A DNA stretch of 39,939 nt, from contig CAIMZS010000397.1 in NCBI GenBank assembly GCA_903846015.1, positions 1 to 39,939 on the forward strand, in the 5' to 3' direction. The notes below the pieces were generated by a model. It saw nothing but the letters and a program-made list of their open reading frames with translations, was not told where the DNA came from and made no database searches. The stretch is from an uncultured Anaerolineae bacterium. Its GTDB lineage: Bacteria > Chloroflexota > Anaerolineae > Anaerolineales > Villigracilaceae. The translations under genes and the position numbers were made by a program. Positions 25,410 to 33,359 of the stretch are shown here, one piece after another. Position 1 is the first letter of the stretch, and the number at the start of each line of letters is the position of its first letter.

Positions 25410-27722
25410 TTACATCTGGGCCAATAAAATACGATATTCTTCAATATTGGGCGGATTCATTGCAATAATCTGCTTGATTACCCTGGCAACGCCTTCCTTA
25501 TCACCACTTTCCATCAGCTTCTCCCCGAGTGCATCCAACCTGGTGATGGCTTCGGCAGTCTTGCCATCCTTGTGCAGCTGATCAGCCAGAATACGATGAA
25601 TCATGGTCTGATCATTATGTTCTTCGAGAAGTTTTTGAAGAAAAGGAATAATCTCCTCGCGTTTGTTGCTCTCAAGGTAAGCAACAAACGACTCCAGTTC
25701 AGCCTGGGCCTGCGGCACCTGGGCCAGGCGCAAGTTTAATTCAATCAAACTTTCACGGACGCTGGAATCGCCGGGGTTGAGAGTGCGTATCTGCTCGAAA
25801 ACACGCATCGCCTGGCGCCAATCGAGTCGCTGCATATCAATATCTGCCATGGACTTAAGGATTTTAACATTCCAATCACGATTGGAATTTGACTGACCAG
25901 CCAGGCGTAAAGCGGTCGTATAAGACTTACGCGCCATATCCAACTCAGCCAACCGGTAGTAAATATCAGCCATATCCATATATTCGCCAATAGCCTGATC
26001 AACCTCACCACGCGCGGTCAGTTGATCAATCAAGCGGCTACGAGAGACCAGATCCATGGGAGAAAGCTGGATGACGCGCTTGAGAATGGCTGTGGCCTGG
26101 GCCCCTTCCCCGCGCACACTGTAAGAATTGGCAATCGTGTTGAACTTGGTAATTGCATCCGGCGTGCGTCCCTCACGGATAAGCAGTTCGCCTATCAGGA
26201 TATGCAGAGGCAAGTAGGTGGGCGCATATAAAAGTGTATGAAAGGCTTCATCCATCGCGGAGCGCAGGAAATTGGCGCGGGCCAGTTCGTTGACCGTCTT
26301 CATGGCCTCAATAACCTGGCTGGATTGAGCCTGGATGATAATCTCAGCGATCGGCAAGACCTGACCATCACCCGCTGACATTTCATCACGCATCTTAAGC
26401 AGGTGCTGGCGCCAATTAACACGCACCAACATTTCTTCAACATTGTCACATAGTTTAACTTGAGCCTGGACATCATTATCACGCCCGACTGATTCGATCA
26501 AAGGCTCATACAACTGGCGAACCACATCGGCCTGGTCAGGTGCCACAATGGATATATCCGCAATTTTGAGGGCTTCAAGGTATTCAGAGGCAGCCTGTTT
26601 GACACGATTAAGACCGCGCAGAACCTTCCCACTCAATAAACGCGCCGCCAGATCATAATCATTGTGTTTGACACACTGCTGGAGCCTGCGAAGGGCATTT
26701 TCTTGCTGGGCTGTTTTAGAGAGCATCAGACCCAGATCAAAAAATATTGCCGGGTGCGCAAAGCCAGCTTCGATGGCATGCTCCAATTCTTCGATGGCTA
26801 CACCCTCGTTCTCCTTGGTCTGGGCATCGATGGCCTCGCTGAGATGCAGCAGGATGCGGGTATGTTCAGACTGGCCGATGTTAATCTGGGCAATATCTCT
26901 GACGATGGCGGCCAGACCACGCCGGGCAACCGCATCACCGCTATCATCTTCCATATCAAAAAGCACATCTGCAAAAACCTTTAATGCCTTCTGACGCGAC
27001 TCTATAATAGGATCAGGGCTCGATTTGCTCAACAAATCAAGAACAGGTGCAGCGGGGGGATTCAGTTCTCTCACCTGAGCCATGCGCAGCGGACCGGTGC
27101 CACCCTTGGGACGCATCGGTCTGGGGAGCATTCGACCAGATCTGATTAAACTCAGAGCCTGGCGCAGTTCAGCACTTTCGGGATCCAGCTGCGCAGCATG
27201 TTGCAAAATTTCAAAGGCCTTTTGCGGGGTGCCGCCATTTTGCAGAATGCTGGCGAGCGCAATGAACTCGGCGATGGCTTGACGAGTCTGACCAGTCTTT
27301 TCATGAATAAGCGCCAGGCGCGAACGCGCCTGGATATTCTCCGGTTTTAGCTGAATCACGCTCAACCAGTTTTCAAGTGCTTTATCCAAATCACGGATTT
27401 TTAAATATAGCTCAGCGGCATGCAGCGCAGACTGAACGGCATCGTTAAGATTCCCCAGTCGTTCATTAATCTGCGCGATCTTTTCAAAGGGAATGGGATC
27501 TTCAGGACTGACCCTGGCAGCATGAATATAAGCCTTTAAAGCGGCATCAAAACGCTGCAGTTGGTATTGCGCCAGGGCATAACTATTGAGTGCCTTGGCG
27601 CTCTCCGGAAATTCGGCCAGGGCCTTTAAATAGGCCTTTGCGGCTTCATCCCAGTTTTGATCCCAGGCCGCCGAATGGCCCTCATTCATCGCTTTCTGAA
27701 AAACATCTTCACGTCCAGCCAT
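25410..27722 (-). CDS. Tetratricopeptide-repeat protein, 770 aa
   Basis: Soluble helical-repeat protein with no signal peptide or membrane helix. TPR units are visible at the N-terminus ('WDEAAKAYLKALAEFPESAK' plus ALNSYALAQYQLQRFDAALK), around residues 110-190, 300-390 and 500-740 ('AITKFNTIANSYSVRGEG', 'AIGEYMDMADIYYRLAELDM'). It is a scaffold or protein-interaction module; no catalytic domain is seen. It starts 10 bp after the polA stop with AAAGGTG as ribosome site, so it is almost certainly co-transcribed with polA, although a functional connection is not evident. Similar large TPR proteins are common in Chloroflexota. The frame is uninterrupted over all units. Confidence 0.85.
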   Translation of the reverse strand: MAGREDVFQKAMNEGHSAAWDQNWDEAAKAYLKALAEFPESAKALNSYALAQYQLQRFDAALKAYIHAARVSPEDPIPFEKIAQINERLGNLNDAVQSALHAAELYLKIRDLDKALENWLSVIQLKPENIQARSRLALIHEKTGQTRQAIAEFIALASILQNGGTPQKAFEILQHAAQLDPESAELRQALSLIRSGRMLPRPMRPKGGTGPLRMAQVRELNPPAAPVLDLLSKSSPDPIIESRQKALKVFADVLFDMEDDSGDAVARRGLAAIVRDIAQINIGQSEHTRILLHLSEAIDAQTKENEGVAIEELEHAIEAGFAHPAIFFDLGLMLSKTAQQENALRRLQQCVKHNDYDLAARLLSGKVLRGLNRVKQAASEYLEALKIADISIVAPDQADVVRQLYEPLIESVGRDNDVQAQVKLCDNVEEMLVRVNWRQHLLKMRDEMSAGDGQVLPIAEIIIQAQSSQVIEAMKTVNELARANFLRSAMDEAFHTLLYAPTYLPLHILIGELLIREGRTPDAITKFNTIANSYSVRGEGAQATAILKRVIQLSPMDLVSRSRLIDQLTARGEVDQAIGEYMDMADIYYRLAELDMARKSYTTALRLAGQSNSNRDWNVKILKSMADIDMQRLDWRQAMRVFEQIRTLNPGDSSVRESLIELNLRLAQVPQAQAELESFVAYLESNKREEIIPFLQKLLEEHNDQTMIHRILADQLHKDGKTAEAITRLDALGEKLMESGDKEGVARVIKQIIAMNPPNIEEYRILLAQM

Positions 27723-27732
27723 AATTCACCTT

Positions 27733-30684
27733 TCAGAGCAGCACTTGCATTGCGCCCCAGCTTTTTCCAGAACGAGCCTCGGTGGAGAGCGGGATATCCA
27801 ACGGATAGGCCGATTCCATCGTTTGCTGCACGATCCGGGCGGTCTGGATTAATTCAGATTGAGGGCATTCTATCACAATCTCGTCGTGTACCTGTAAGAG
27901 CATCTGACCTTTCAAACCAGCCTGCTTAAGCGCAGGTGAAATGGCCAGCATGGACAGCTTCATGATGTCAGCCGCGCTGCCCTGGATAGGCGCATTGATG
28001 GCCTCGCGTTCTTCACGGTTGCGCAATTGGGCATTCATCATGTTCTTGAGTGCAGGAAAATAACGCCTGCGCCCAAGCAAGGTCGTGACATAGCCCTGCT
28101 GAGATGCCAACCTGCGCGTGGCATCGAGGTAATCCTTGACGCCAGGAAAACGGGCGAAATAGGTCTTGACAAAGTTTTCAGCCTCGCCAAGGGTCAGATC
28201 AGTTGTGCGCATCAACCCAAACGGCGACATACCATAGATCAGCCCAAAGTTTATCGCCTTGGCGTGCCGGCGCATATCCTTGGTCACCCCAGACAATTCC
28301 TGTCCAAAAATAGCAGCAGCAGTACTGGTATGAATGTCCTGCCCGGAGCGAAAAGCATCCAGCATGGCTTCATCGCGAGCCATGAAAGCGACAAGGCGTA
28401 GTTCCACCTGGGAATAGTCCACTGAGAGCAATACATTATCTTCATCAGCAATAAAACCATTGCGAACACGGCGCCCGATTTCGGTACGGATGGGTATATT
28501 TTGAAGATTGGGATTGTTCGATGAGAGCCGGCCTGTGACAGCGCCAGCCTGGCTGTAAGAGGTATGCACCCGCCCAGTATTGGCATCAACCGCAGCGGGC
28601 AGCGCATCCACATAGGTGGATTTCAACTTGGAAAGCTCGCGGTGTTCCAGGATCAGATCCACAACAGCATGCTGACCTCGCAATTCATCGAGCACATCGG
28701 CCGATGTGGAAAAATGGCCGCTGGCAGTTTTGCGGCCGCGGTTCGGAGGAATCAGCATCAACCGGTTGAAGAGCACTTCCGATAACTGCTGGGTGGAATT
28801 AATGTTAAAGGGTTTACCCACCTGCTCAAAGATCCGTAATTCCAGCGAAGCCAGGTTGGTGGTTAATTCCTTTGAAAAAGCGTGGAAAAAATCCAGATCC
28901 AGGCGCACACCCACCAATTCCATACCTGCCAATACGCTGACCAGCGGCATTTCAATCTCATCCATAAGCCTTTCCAGGCTGTCACGCTTGATCTCGAACT
29001 TCAGTTGTGGCATCAGCCGCAGACAGGTCTCTGCATCTGCGACAGCATACGGAGCAGCCGCATCGATCGGCACCTGGGCCATTGTTATCTGGTTTTTACC
29101 CTTGCCAATCAATTCTTCGATGTGGGTCATCTCCTCGCCAAGACGACTGAGCACCAGGTTCTTTAGACCCAGGTTATGCGAGTTGGGATCAAGCAGCCAT
29201 TCGGCCAGCATGGTATCGAATGAGAGCGGCGATACCATCAGCCCATGACGAGTCAGAATAACATAGTCATACTTAACATTATGACCAATTTTTTGAATGG
29301 AAGGGTTGGTAAGCGGCCCAGTCAGGGCATCCACAACTTGCTTAAGCGGCAGATTACGCGCACTTGGGACGAAACCCTGCCCCCCCACCCCAAAAGAACC
29401 TGTGGGCATGGGTTCAAGATGACCGATGGGAATATACCAACCAGAGCCAGCTCTGATGGCAAGCGATATCCCCACCAGCGCAGCCTGCATTTCATCAGTC
29501 GATGTCGTTTCAGTATCGAAGGAAATGATGGCAGCCTGATTAAGCTCGTCGACCAGCTTCTCCAGCTTTTCGGCGGTATCCACAACAAAAGCCTGCGGGC
29601 CTGTCACCAGTGTAGTTATCTGGGAAATTGAATCCGGAGAATGAGCGGATGAATCGCCACGGCCAATGTTGGTTTGTTGGGGCAGCCTGGTTACATCCAT
29701 ATCGAACAAGGAAAGCTGACCGGCCATCCCACCAGAGTCTGCTGGGGCCGGCCTGGACACCGGGCCGGATAAATCATGCTGTTTCACAGACCCACCGCCG
29801 GGCAGCGCAGCCACCCTGGGAATCAGTGTGCGGAATTCCAATTCGCGGAACAACTTTTCAACAGCCGAAACGTCAAATTGGTCAGCGCGGGCATGTTCCA
29901 AATCCAGCCGGATAGGCAGATCAGTATGAATAAGTGCCAGATCACGGCTCAGGTAAGCCATTTCACGGTTTTCTTCAAGCTTTACCCGTATTTTGGGAGC
30001 AACCTGATCGAGATGAGCATAAATATCATCAAGCGAAGAAAACTTCTCGAACAGTGCTTGGGCGGTTTTCTCACCCACACCTTTTACGCCCGGGATATTA
30101 TCGGATGTATCCCCAACCAGCGCCTTGTAGTCGACAACCAGGCTGGCCGGAACACCAAATTTCGTGCGTACATCATCATCCGTGACAAAATCTTTCGCAT
30201 CTGCCAGCTTGCCACCCTCGGGCAGGTTGACAATAATATGGTTACCCACAAGCTGAAGAAGGTCACGGTCACCGGTAATAATTTTGACGCCCAGGCCCTG
30301 AGCGGCAGCCTGTTTTGCGATCGAGCCGAGCACATCATCTGCTTCGAAGCCTTCCATCTCCAGGCGAGGGATGTTAAAAGCATCCACCATCTGGCGGATG
30401 CGCTCGATCTGCGGGCGAAGATCATCCGGCATCTTGGCACGGGTAGCCTTATATGCCGGGAAAAGTTCGTCACGAAAGGTTTTGCCCGTATCAAAAGCGA
30501 CAGCGATATATTCCGGCCGGTCATTTTCCAACAAACGCATCAGCACGGTAGCAAAACCGAATATACCTGCCGTTGGCTCCCCACTGGATGTCTGCCAACG
30601 CGAACCAGTTGCGCCGCTGGTAAGCGCAAAGAAGGTACGATAAGCCAGCGCATGTCCATCAATCAAATAAAGTTTGGAAGGCAT
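27733..30684 (-). CDS. polA: DNA polymerase I
   Basis: 983 aa, full three-domain enzyme. The 5'-3' flap nuclease domain (1-300) has 'LYLIDGHALAYRTFFAL', 'GFEADDVLGSIAKQA' and 'KIITGDRDLLQLV' plus 'KALVGDTSDNIPGVKGVGEK'. The 3'-5' exonuclease domain (about 375-570) keeps its acidic residues: 'ISFDTETTSTD', 'IGHNVKYDYVIL' and 'PYAVADAETCLRL', so proofreading should be active. The polymerase domain has motif A 'LLSVDYSQVELRLVAF', motif B 'RRHAKAINFGLIYGMSPFGL' and motif C 'LLQVHDEIVIE'. It repairs DNA and removes RNA primers. TTGACC about 30 nt upstream of the start might be a -35 element, but no good -10 or ribosome site is visible. Confidence 0.97.
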   Translation of the reverse strand: MPSKLYLIDGHALAYRTFFALTSGATGSRWQTSSGEPTAGIFGFATVLMRLLENDRPEYIAVAFDTGKTFRDELFPAYKATRAKMPDDLRPQIERIRQMVDAFNIPRLEMEGFEADDVLGSIAKQAAAQGLGVKIITGDRDLLQLVGNHIIVNLPEGGKLADAKDFVTDDDVRTKFGVPASLVVDYKALVGDTSDNIPGVKGVGEKTAQALFEKFSSLDDIYAHLDQVAPKIRVKLEENREMAYLSRDLALIHTDLPIRLDLEHARADQFDVSAVEKLFRELEFRTLIPRVAALPGGGSVKQHDLSGPVSRPAPADSGGMAGQLSLFDMDVTRLPQQTNIGRGDSSAHSPDSISQITTLVTGPQAFVVDTAEKLEKLVDELNQAAIISFDTETTSTDEMQAALVGISLAIRAGSGWYIPIGHLEPMPTGSFGVGGQGFVPSARNLPLKQVVDALTGPLTNPSIQKIGHNVKYDYVILTRHGLMVSPLSFDTMLAEWLLDPNSHNLGLKNLVLSRLGEEMTHIEELIGKGKNQITMAQVPIDAAAPYAVADAETCLRLMPQLKFEIKRDSLERLMDEIEMPLVSVLAGMELVGVRLDLDFFHAFSKELTTNLASLELRIFEQVGKPFNINSTQQLSEVLFNRLMLIPPNRGRKTASGHFSTSADVLDELRGQHAVVDLILEHRELSKLKSTYVDALPAAVDANTGRVHTSYSQAGAVTGRLSSNNPNLQNIPIRTEIGRRVRNGFIADEDNVLLSVDYSQVELRLVAFMARDEAMLDAFRSGQDIHTSTAAAIFGQELSGVTKDMRRHAKAINFGLIYGMSPFGLMRTTDLTLGEAENFVKTYFARFPGVKDYLDATRRLASQQGYVTTLLGRRRYFPALKNMMNAQLRNREEREAINAPIQGSAADIMKLSMLAISPALKQAGLKGQMLLQVHDEIVIECPQSELIQTARIVQQTMESAYPLDIPLSTEARSGKSWGAMQVLL

Positions 30685-30722
30685 ACTAATAATTTACCAT
30701 AGAATTGCCCTGGTCAACTAAC

Positions 30723-30775: not shown

Positions 30776-32785
30776 TTACCCGTTCGGGCCCAGACCCTGC
30801 ATTCCACGTGAACGCCTGATAAAGTCGCGAACAAGGTAATGAGGTGGTGGCTCAGTGCTTCCGATGATCATTGAGCCTGGAGCCCAGAAATCATCGGATG
30901 GGTTATCCGCCCTGAAACGCGGAAACTCGGCAAAAAGACGGTTGGATGTTTGCTGGCGAATAACGCGGGTAACATACCCGGCAGAAGTATTCGGTGGTAC
31001 CCGTACGATCCACTGCAAGTAATCTGGCCGCACCGAGATGTATTCCAGCCTCCAGGCAAAAGCCAAACATAAATTCGGAACCCATTCATTCAATCGCCCG
31101 GCTGCGTCACCCACCAGATGATGGGTATCGAAACGAGGGATAAGCACAAAAGCATAACCCAGATCAACCAGCGATGGCGATGGAGGTTCTAGCAGAATGC
31201 GGTGTGACTTCTCGGATGACGACTCACCACTGGATTGCGGGCGGGTCTCAGCCACCGACGGAGAGTCTTTCACTTCCTGTTTGCGAGTTTCCTGTACATC
31301 ATCGCGAATCTTGCTGACACGAGTTTCTGCCAGGTTTTCGCGGTTCTGCATGGGCAGCATCAGGCGGGCGATGTTTGCCGAAGATGCCATAGTCTCATCC
31401 ATGGCAGGTTTATCAGCCACGGGGTGCAATTTTTCGACCTGCTCATTGGAAACTACAGGCAGTGGTTGCTCTTTTTGACCAGGATTCGTGACCAGACCAC
31501 GCTGGATGGATGGAGAACTTTCCCGGCTATATTGATTCTCAGGCATAGGTCTGATATCTGCATCTACTTCAGAACGAAGCGCATTGAGCGAAGCCAACGG
31601 AGTGGTGGGCGCCTCATTAACCCCAGTGTTATGCCGCATTTCGACTGGAACAACAGTTGCCGGTCTGTAAACAGCAGCTACTAGTGCAGGCGGGATGGGA
31701 GGCGGCACATCGCCGATCAACTTCGAGATGGGTGGCAGGTCATCCCCATCATCGTCATCTTCATCGGAATACACATCGGTATTCGCGGGAGCAGCCAGCT
31801 TTGCCATTTTGTCATTGCTCGCGGCAAGCTCCGGCGTGGCAACCTCGTCTTTCGTGTTGAAAACTTCGGTTTCCGGTTTTAATACAGACGAAAGATTGGG
31901 AGCTGGCGGTTCAAATGACGCTTCAGGCTGCGACGGAACAGTCCCTGTGACAGTCGGAGTTATTTTTTGGGATGAAGTGGATACCCCAATCGCCGATGAT
32001 GTTTCAGAAAGATTTTTTATGAGCCGGTTAGCCTGAGAGCGGATAGTGCTGAAGGGTGTTTCGGCGTCGAAAACCAGCGCCAACAGCATGTTGTCAGCGA
32101 GTTTGCGCGCATACAGCATGTGTTGAGCATCGGTGGAGCGCAGACGCACAAACCGCAACAAATCACTTTCACCCTGGGCATCCCAGTAATGCTGTAAAGA
32201 ATCAGTCAATTCCTGAGCCGCTTCACGTGAAAGCTGCCCGGCATAAGCCCACAATTCTTTATGAAGAGTGATCAGGGCTGCCTGGGCAGACGATTCGAGA
32301 GTCAGCCGCGTGAGGTGCTGGGCAGCTTTGCTGACATCTTTGAGCCATACTGGACCGGAGAGCTCAACCGGGGTTTCAGCAGAAATAAACATTTGTTTCA
32401 AAGCGCTCCCCTTGGGTTTTCCTGGAGAAGAAAGAAGTAATGTTTCAAGCAGCTGGTTTAGATCTGGCATAGACAGCGGCTTGGTAAGAGTAGCTGCCGG
32501 GGAAAGCGAATCTGCATCGGCATTTAAACCTGCACCTGCTACCAGCACAAACCGAAGATTGGGCCTGACCTGACGCAAGGCAAAACCGATATCCATAACA
32601 GAAAGTTCAACATCTTCCCGTTCCACATCAAGAATTGCTACGGGACAATCGTTTTTCCGGGCGTAACGAACCGCTTCGGTAAAGTCTGATGTGGAAAACG
32701 AGTCAAACATTACAGCATCCATACCCGCACAGATAGATTCACCAAATTCAGCCTGGGGGGTGACAATCAATACGGGGAAGGCCAT
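30776..32785 (-). CDS. Receiver-like domain, disordered linker and degenerate IS200/Y1 transposase-like domain
   Basis: 669 aa. Residues 1-115 look like a response-regulator receiver: 'FPVLIVTPQAEFGESI', candidate phosphoacceptor D53 in 'VAILDVE' and K102 in 'LTKPLSMPDLNQLL'. A helical part (about 140-270) is followed by a roughly 260-residue low-complexity linker rich in Pro, Ser, Glu and Thr. Residues 543-665 align by eye with the IS200/TnpA-REP (Y1) fold: 'GYAFVLIPRF', 'RLEYISVRPDYLQWIVRVPP', 'RQQTSNRLFAEFPRF', 'FWAPGSMIIGSTE' and 'VRDFIRRSR'. The HUH pair of an active enzyme (PDHVHLLV) is replaced by PDYLQWIV (589-591), and the catalytic Tyr position is F655. It is therefore probably a domesticated, non-catalytic nucleic-acid-binding domain. 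I know of no named family with this layout. Confidence 0.7.
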   Translation of the reverse strand: MAFPVLIVTPQAEFGESICAGMDAVMFDSFSTSDFTEAVRYARKNDCPVAILDVEREDVELSVMDIGFALRQVRPNLRFVLVAGAGLNADADSLSPAATLTKPLSMPDLNQLLETLLLSSPGKPKGSALKQMFISAETPVELSGPVWLKDVSKAAQHLTRLTLESSAQAALITLHKELWAYAGQLSREAAQELTDSLQHYWDAQGESDLLRFVRLRSTDAQHMLYARKLADNMLLALVFDAETPFSTIRSQANRLIKNLSETSSAIGVSTSSQKITPTVTGTVPSQPEASFEPPAPNLSSVLKPETEVFNTKDEVATPELAASNDKMAKLAAPANTDVYSDEDDDDGDDLPPISKLIGDVPPPIPPALVAAVYRPATVVPVEMRHNTGVNEAPTTPLASLNALRSEVDADIRPMPENQYSRESSPSIQRGLVTNPGQKEQPLPVVSNEQVEKLHPVADKPAMDETMASSANIARLMLPMQNRENLAETRVSKIRDDVQETRKQEVKDSPSVAETRPQSSGESSSEKSHRILLEPPSPSLVDLGYAFVLIPRFDTHHLVGDAAGRLNEWVPNLCLAFAWRLEYISVRPDYLQWIVRVPPNTSAGYVTRVIRQQTSNRLFAEFPRFRADNPSDDFWAPGSMIIGSTEPPPHYLVRDFIRRSRGMQGLGPNG

Positions 32786-32917: not shown

Positions 32918-33220
32918 TCAGGACGCGGGGGGTATCGGGCCGTCGTAGCTTTGCGCGACGGGTGAAACAGCTTCGGCAGGCTTCTTGCGAAGTGTAAAGA
33001 ACCCTACTGCAATCGGAATGATGATCAGAATCACCGAAACGCAAATCAGAGAAAACCCTATCATAGGCGGGTACGTTTGTACCGATTGAACGCCATTTAA
33101 ATCCTGGTTGAATGGTACGCCACCAGCAATCATTCCACCAAAAATACAGGACATGATTGCCATACAACCACAACAGAGAGAAGTGATCACAGTTATTGCA
33201 ATTCCAACAGTTCGGTTCAT
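32918..33220 (-). CDS. Small membrane protein, 100 aa
   Basis: ATG at 33218-33220 with GGAGG upstream (the open frame to 33259 has no site). Two hydrophobic helices: residues 4-30, rich in Cys and Gly ('ITVITSLCCGCMAIMSCIFG'), and about 52-75 ('MIGFSLICVSVILIIIPIAV'). A short polar loop (VPFNQDLNGVQSVQTYPPM) lies between them and a proline-ended tail (DGPIPPAS) closes the protein. Function unknown. It sits between pheT and the receiver/Y1-like gene on the same strand, apparently as its own unit. Confidence 0.72.
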   Translation of the reverse strand: MNRTVGIAITVITSLCCGCMAIMSCIFGGMIAGGVPFNQDLNGVQSVQTYPPMIGFSLICVSVILIIIPIAVGFFTLRKKPAEAVSPVAQSYDGPIPPAS

Positions 33221-33359
33221 ACAGCCTCCATTAAAGAAAGAAAATAAATTCAACCCCATATAGACAGTGGGGTCATATAATTAGTATACAACATATTGGG
33301 TAATATTTTACCAGATAAATAACGGTATTCTTTCTCGTGAACAGAAGTGACCTGGGCCA

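Follow-up and report, generated by a model that had tools for sequence, protein, structure and literature searches.

A vertically inherited Anaerolineae protein joins receiver-like and Roadblock domains to an IS200-type transposase fold without its HUH histidines

The subject of this analysis is a gene of an uncultured Anaerolineae bacterium, located at positions 30776-32785 (minus strand) of a 39,939-nucleotide stretch of DNA (GenBank contig CAIMZS010000397.1, positions 1 to 39,939, assembly GCA_903846015.1), the whole of which is referred to here as the window. Its product is a four-part protein consisting of a receiver-like (REC) domain, a Roadblock/LC7 domain, a linker and an IS200-type (Y1) transposase domain, and the last of these is still conserved but has lost the HUH histidine pair in all relatives examined. 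We refer to this domain as pseudoY1 and to the gene, which is frequently followed by polA, as the REC-Roadblock-Y1 gene. It is a cellular gene of Anaerolineae, vertically inherited and not a mobile element, and its product likely binds rather than cuts. The open reading frame, described in an earlier note that was made from the sequence without database searches, is real, with 669 codons from ATG to stop.

Results

The C-terminal domain was identified both from sequence and from predicted structure. Y1_Tnp (PF01797) is the only Pfam family in the window protein (residues 541-638, E value 2e-7; score 31.6 bits, cut-off 23), and the NCBIfam IS200 transposase model scores 39.7 bits, under its cut-off of 55. 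A sequence search of solved structures returned Y1 transposases only, with weak matches (six sequences, E 0.006 to 0.07). The AlphaFold2 model of the last 145 residues, built from 46 sequences, has a mean predicted local distance difference test score (pLDDT) of 91.8 and a predicted template-modelling (TM) score (pTM) of 0.83; the first 29 rows of its Foldseek search are IS200/IS605-type transposases and row 30 is a RAYT. Structure 2fyx superposes on the model with a target TM of 0.80 and 2.3 Å, the other 28 IS200/IS605-type rows having root-mean-square deviations of approximately 7-14 Å. The alignment used for this model (A3) comprises 35 fused or partial members, eight standalone paralogues and three canonical Y1 proteins (L047, L048 and L049), and these last three could push the model towards the Y1 fold. 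All 31 full-length members (alignment A1), each scanned singly, nevertheless match both Y1_Tnp of Pfam and the NCBIfam IS200 transposase model at E ≤ 1. The likeness of the C-terminus to IS200/TnpA-REP proteins, noticed in the earlier note, is thus confirmed by the Pfam match, and the structure prediction and Foldseek comparison suggested there recover the Y1 fold.

Aligned with canonical Y1 proteins (L047 and L048), the window protein has Y589 and Q591 in the HUH columns, F655 in the catalytic tyrosine column and S659 in the glutamine column, which agrees with the replaced histidines and Phe655 reported previously. In a scan of approximately 85,000 named genomes 188 stretches matched, of which 172 encode a relative; the best 80 of the 172 were analysed (hereafter the named loci). 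These are metagenome-derived records, and most carry the label Anaerolineae, Anaerolineales, Anaerolinea or Chloroflexi; the titles of two read Chloroflexus sp. and Herpetosiphon sp. Both HUH histidines are present in 0/80 named loci and one in 2/80, while 76 have Y and Q; among the 43 non-canonical A3 rows likewise no protein has both, and eight have one, the two tallies not being independent as they have some genomes in common. No HUH histidine was found in any of six deeper relatives. For comparison, a class-wide search with the same profile, which gave 30 rows, ten of them belonging to the REC-Roadblock-Y1 family or its paralogues, provided 20 canonical or other Y1 proteins as controls. 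Both histidines are kept in 17 of these and the tyrosine and glutamine as well in 14, the exceptions being two Y-H, one H-R, one with arginine in place of glutamine and two that end before the tyrosine.

The tyrosine column is less uniform, with Tyr in 54 and Phe in 26 of the 80 named loci, and Tyr in 14 and Phe in 21 of the 35 A3 members; the glutamine column holds Thr in 75/80 named loci. Of the two losses whose fixation the earlier note proposed to check, that of the histidine pair, and hence of the metal site, is fixed among the relatives examined, whereas that of the nucleophile is not, because neither set contains a protein with both histidines and most named loci keep the tyrosine.

The domain has nonetheless been maintained. 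Over 115 rows (the named loci plus the 35 A3 members, which are not independent for the reason given above), 47 columns of the Y1 domain are at least 90% conserved; P550, S614, W634 and R660 are invariant, and the basic residues R551, R579, R586, R607, R610, R623, R660 and R662 all reach 90%. Ratios of nonsynonymous to synonymous differences (pN/pS) were averaged over the 36 pairs within each of two nine-gene sets, giving 0.45 for REC, 0.23 for Roadblock, 0.61 for the linker and 0.31 for Y1 within the genus, and 0.55, 0.35, 0.65 and 0.24 respectively among other family members. These values are rough and only the contrast between domains is usable, because synonymous sites are nearly saturated. 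In that contrast Y1, for which a dN/dS check had been suggested in the earlier note, lies below the linker (residues 269-530), as does Roadblock; these two domains are conserved, and the linker is poorly conserved and variable in length.

Of 41 genomes, comprising that of the window and 40 others of the same genus, family or order, 36 have a match to the protein, the five without one being G030, G034 and G038 at order level and G004 and G005 in the genus. Both halves are present in 10/16 order-level genomes outside the family; G025 and G039 have the N-terminal half only, and G028 has a piece at a contig end. One of the ten, G040, has its REC, Roadblock and Y1 pieces in three separate frames (L033:5962-7509), perhaps through an assembly error or in a broken copy. 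All 80 named loci encode the Roadblock-Y1 fusion, with a recognised receiver in 72; one is cut by a contig end. Over 66 loci, distances for Y1 and Roadblock correlate with those for polA (Mantel r 0.71 and 0.83 respectively, p 0.001), which looks like the expectation under joint vertical descent with polA. The conserved domain, the order-level distribution and this co-divergence uphold the earlier proposal that the gene is domesticated and not an insertion sequence.

The N-terminal half is harder to recognise from sequence. In the window protein alone, the Pfam receiver family (Response_reg) has no match at E ≤ 10, but it matches 25 of 30 aligned relatives (E ≤ 1). Built from 29 sequences, the AlphaFold2 model of the first 270 residues (mean pLDDT 87.6, pTM 0.50) shows a receiver fold followed by the order helix-strand-strand-helix-strand-strand-strand-helix, which is that of Roadblock/LC7. 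Foldseek pairs the model with receivers, Rag/Gtr complexes and Myxococcus MglB (rows 6hjm/6h5b, probability 1.00, target TM approximately 0.7). The NCBIfam MglB model gives weak matches in 8/31 members (window: E 0.01, residues 220-266), and Pfam Robl_LC7 (PF03259), searched against the window's own genome, matched two other places and not the REC-Roadblock-Y1 gene. Because Robl_LC7 misses the domain, its assignment rests on structure together with the MglB matches, and on these models the window protein contains an MglB-like Roadblock/LC7 domain with a profilin-like fold. The order of the four parts follows from the sequence matches and the predicted folds of both halves. The linker of roughly 260 residues that the earlier note placed between receiver and transposase must be corrected accordingly, as residues 145-268 are the Roadblock/LC7 domain, which it overlooked.

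That note was right to see a receiver-like domain, given the fold in the model, the matches in relatives and the presence of D53 and K102. The first of these residues is Asp in 29/31 members and the second Lys in 26/31, with P103 in 31/31. By comparison with the roles of the corresponding Asp, Lys and acidic pair in CheY-type receivers, the domain appears degenerate in most members: the acidic pair is replaced by T9-P10 in the window, and Asp or Glu occurs at position 9 in 3/31 members and at position 10 in none. Phosphorylation-dependent gating, which the earlier note had entertained as control by a signalling domain, is doubtful because this pair is missing in most members. A partner of the Ras-like GTPase type (MglA) was also sought, and an Arf-family search of the window's own genome (approximately 6.5 Mb in 662 contigs) gave three weak matches in longer frames, none a clear candidate. 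A class-wide query with the REC-Roadblock alignment matched 150/150 genomes and does not discriminate, because receivers match everywhere. Within the window linker, at approximately residues 460-517, short motifs recur (for example MDETMAS, QETRKQ and AETRPQ), and most of 11 relatives compared have similar ones; they are possible phosphothreonine sites.

Table 1. Positions of the REC-Roadblock-Y1 gene, its parts and its neighbours in the window
Feature	Position	Strand	Basis
REC-Roadblock-linker-pseudoY1 protein, 669 aa	30776..32785	-	ATG start, open frame to stop, 669 codons
Receiver-like (REC) domain, residues 1-120	32426..32785	-	AlphaFold2, Foldseek, residue tally; Response_reg in relatives
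Roadblock/LC7 (MglB-like) domain, residues 145-268	31982..32353	-	AlphaFold2 element order, Foldseek, weak MglB match
Linker, residues 269-530, variable, poorly conserved	31196..31981	-	Alignment, pN/pS
PseudoY1 domain, residues 535-664, IS200 transposase fold lacking HUH	30794..31183	-	Pfam, AlphaFold2, Foldseek, residue tally
HUH motif position, Y589-L590-Q591	31013..31021	-	Alignment with canonical Y1 proteins
Catalytic tyrosine position, F655	30821..30823	-	Alignment with canonical Y1 proteins
Intrinsic-terminator-like hairpin, 11 pairs, between gene and polA	30754-30725	-	Hairpin scan and sequence
Promoter-like match before polA (TTGACC, 17, AATTAT)	30689..30717	-	Such matches at chance level
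polA (DNA polymerase I), frequent neighbour	27733..30684	-	PF00476 match G000:C397:27754-28887; synteny
TPR-repeat protein, usually 3' of polA	25410..27722	-	Pfam, synteny

The gene lies in a recurrent setting (Table 1). Among the named loci polA is downstream on the same strand in 70/80, within 500 bp in 69, and the TPR gene is also present in 57 of these 70; in the remaining ten the downstream sequence is shorter than 500 bp (two loci) or extends over 1.5-5 kb (eight). The earlier note had not noticed the linkage to polA. At order level polA is directly 3' of the gene in most loci. Elsewhere in the class, other families have this domain order with longer REC-Roadblock inserts, and there polA lies within approximately 130 bp in L121, L124 and L129 and 1.4 kb downstream in L127; L113 is a short contig with no polA on it. 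REC-Roadblock genes without Y1 stand directly before polA in L034, L035, L119 and L122; the REC-Roadblock genes of G116 and G090 are on contigs other than that of polA. Linkage to polA is frequent and seems likely to be old, but it is far from being universal.

A terminator-like hairpin is present in 41/64 gene-polA junctions of the named loci (1.1 expected by mononucleotide shuffling), which is ordinary by itself. The window junction has one as well: of the promoter-like sequence and terminator credited to the gene in the earlier note, the terminator is supported by an 11-pair stem, and promoter-like matches are at chance level (4 observed, 3.1 expected). More specific is a palindrome with arms GCAGAG and CTCTGC, usually of the form CGCAGAGTATAATCAACTCTGCG or close to it, both arms of which occur in 25/65 gene-polA junctions and 0/46 polA-TPR junctions of the same loci; the corresponding counts for GTATAAT are 28/65 and 1/46. 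With a TATAAT loop the pattern is found in 25/80 named loci. Examples of junctions with the palindrome are L275:5471, L286:5469 and L018:1463. Its arms change in pairs, from CGCAGAG/CTCTGCG to CGCGGAG/CTCCGCG and in the further variants GTGCAGAG with CTCTGCAC and ACCGCAGAG with CTCTGCGGT; the hairpin scan left this variation unrestricted, whereas the TATAAT pattern search restricts which positions can vary. No -35 element stood out consistently in column counts at the TATAAT palindrome. The palindrome may act as a terminator, may combine a polA promoter and its operator, or may form a hairpin to which a protein binds.

Among the 41 genomes the strict TATAAT pattern occurs once (G018), with variants at the G011 and G015 junctions. 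The arms with any loop number 0-12 per genome in 31 genomes, compared to 0-5 for a reversed-pattern control, and are at the gene-polA junction in G011, G014, G015, G017 and G018. These counts rule out a high-copy REP-like repeat served by the protein. In three members of the window's genus (L002, L006 and L009) the junction carries another hairpin at this position, formed by TTCCTCTTTC and GAAAGAGGAA. Of the 46 polA-TPR junctions of the named loci, ten contain GGTTATAAT, perhaps as part of the TPR-gene promoter.

On the other side of the gene, a small protein of 113 residues, hydrophobic by eye, is encoded at 32918-33259 (minus strand) between the REC-Roadblock-Y1 gene and pheT. It has relatives only in genus members among the loci compared, and no Pfam family above cut-off.

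PseudoY1 domains also occur as standalone proteins, eight of which were found in the family. A Y1_Tnp search of the window's own genome matched two places, the REC-Roadblock-Y1 gene and a standalone protein of 209 residues on contig C501, both without the HUH pair. The latter gene (G000:C501, L039:1069-1698) lies 17 bp before a gene encoding NACHT and FGE-sulfatase domains (835 aa), and its counterpart in G002 (L040:6746-7327) lies 46 bp before another such gene (759 aa); in both genomes a chemoreceptor gene is on the opposite side. By Pfam, chemoreceptor genes are near the standalone proteins of G000, G002, G006 and G008. In G015 (L041:1791-2648) and G018 (L042:4226-5122) there are Mrr-type restriction endonuclease genes, which follow standalone pseudoY1 genes immediately or at a distance of two genes, and other genes are found elsewhere. 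A phage-defence gene was looked for with PADLOC, which gave only AbiEii (E 0.039), and was rejected.

Discussion

We propose that pseudoY1 is a domesticated, non-cutting binding module, which a long linker tethers to a Roadblock domain and a degenerate receiver in a vertically inherited gene, and give this reading about even chances. The Roadblock domain would probably be the dimerising and partner-binding part; the Y1 fold would have kept the ability of ancestral TnpA to bind folded single-stranded DNA or RNA, without cutting it; and the N-terminal half would couple this binding to a partner. It would most likely act near polA, for instance on the palindrome that some members have between the two genes.

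Several observations weigh against this reading. No polA was found in the eight named loci whose sequence continues for 1.5-5 kb past the gene, nor in 14 kb of L130, extended to 19 kb in L211 (G145), and it is 2.7 to 3.6 kb from the gene in L028, L031 and L033. Eight of 12 REC-Roadblock loci without Y1 (L114-L118, L120, L123 and L125) have no polA within 4-14 kb. The window and its genus are without the TATAAT palindrome, the window having an ordinary terminator. In G012 the gene and polA are on different contigs, and 67 bp before polA there is a palindrome that shares the arms but has a different loop; this single case suggests that the element belongs to polA and may not be part of the REC-Roadblock-Y1 gene, because the arms have stayed with polA.

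A survey upstream of polA points the same way. It covered 80 further loci, hand-chosen and mostly one per family, 79 of them with a recognisable polA, and found a Roadblock gene in only 4/41 loci of the class and in 0/38 outside it. The positives are L181 and L204, with a receiver and from genomes already having a receiver match near polA, and L195 and L205, without one. Genomes in which linkage had already been seen (G049, G115, G094, G059, G122 and G165) were left out, three loci (L203, L209 and L210) come from genomes with a related match known elsewhere, and some loci have less than 1 kb before polA. L178 (G067), with a receiver match just before polA, is a possible miss because the filter allowed overlaps of up to 120 bp, and G053 was not counted as a member, only a receiver being present there. 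The Roadblock-only proteins (L195:5021-5596 and L205:2849-3331) come from two genomes of another family in the class, and polA follows each of their genes directly.

The linkage may be incidental to an unrelated role and reflect slow genome rearrangement, an explanation which we hold to be only a little short of even and which is compatible with a binding module and a scaffold alike. The eight named loci without polA, G012 and the eight REC-Roadblock loci that have neither Y1 nor a nearby polA favour it, as does the terminator that separates gene and polA in the window. Against it, several families of the class show the linkage, in some members even without Y1 (L119, L122, L181 and L204, where Roadblock scores are weak, approximately 12 to 54 bits).

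A further possibility, to which we attach appreciable but lesser weight, is that pseudoY1 serves as a protein-protein scaffold. TnpA forms dimers, and a signalling adaptor with no nucleic-acid ligand could have kept the dimer-forming skill alone. This would suit a domain that remains conserved with its catalytic residues gone, the standalone paralogues that in several genomes have chemoreceptor and NACHT genes as neighbours, and the regulation of Ras-like GTPases by MglB-type Roadblock proteins described in PMC4316618. The many highly conserved basic residues weigh against a scaffold, and the linkage to polA hints at a DNA context.

The binding-module reading can be carried further, to a cleavage-dead hairpin reader that would act through a Roadblock hub and pseudo-receiver to set polA expression or activity, binding folded DNA or RNA and, in part of the family, the TATAAT palindrome in front of polA, with the standalone paralogues as related sensors, two of them by NACHT-FGE genes. 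We consider this extended form speculative and rather unlikely.

Continued nuclease or ligase activity, through a different metal site or the tyrosine where it is retained, has very little to recommend it beyond the 54 named loci that keep this residue: the window has Phe655, the glutamine position is mostly Thr, and the HuH motif, crucial for the metal ion according to PMC8266576, is gone. A decayed insertion sequence or chance fusion, which transposase-like sequence minus its catalytic residues might bring to mind, is ruled out for practical purposes by the intact open frames, the Roadblock-Y1 fusion in every named locus (72 of them also encode a recognised receiver), a Y1 pN/pS below that of the linker, and co-divergence with polA.

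Comparison with known systems

PseudoY1 shares with IS200/IS605 TnpA (Y1, HUH superfamily) its fold and the residue pattern outside the active site, and differs in having no HUH pair, in its fusion to REC and Roadblock domains and, in the window, in Phe655 at the tyrosine position. Unlike those mobile genes, the pseudoY1 gene is mostly at one conserved chromosomal place, as the downstream polA of 70/80 named loci indicates, and a 'transposase' match in these genomes need not mean a mobile element.

Domesticated Y1 proteins are known, and the best-known prokaryotic examples, TnpA-REP and the RAYTs, are still enzymes. TnpA-REP is catalytically active and has kept the HuH and Tyr residues (PMC8266576, in the part available). 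The REC-Roadblock-Y1 family resembles RAYT/TnpA-REP in being domesticated and in having a palindrome near the gene in part of its members, but its histidine pair is gone and the palindrome is not a high-copy repeat. A survey that sorts the Y1 family into classes around the HuH-Y core describes, in the excerpt available, a class 3 TnpA-Y1 in which five of ten members are without conserved HuH or Y motifs (PMC6006769), so that partly HuH-less Y1 proteins were already known. Those proteins are from Planctomycetes, Acidobacteria and Proteobacteria, and the same excerpt mentions no REC or Roadblock fusion (PMC6006769). Fusions of Response_reg and Robl_LC7 also exist and likewise consist of a receiver followed by an MglB-like region, with no transposase domain mentioned in the available text (PMC4316618). 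Among the titles and abstract openings listed from the open-licence literature, we found no dead Y1 domain alone, with a Roadblock domain or receiver, or beside polA in these bacteria.

If our reading is right, the hairpin-reading half of a transposase can persist as a cellular part without its chemistry. With 47 highly conserved positions, many genomes and one candidate target site, the family offers a testable case for the role of dead transposase relatives. The closest precedent in concept is TldR, a domesticated, nuclease-dead TnpB that is RNA-guided: there too a transposon protein without its activity is seen as having become a regulator, the starting point being TnpB in that case and TnpA here.

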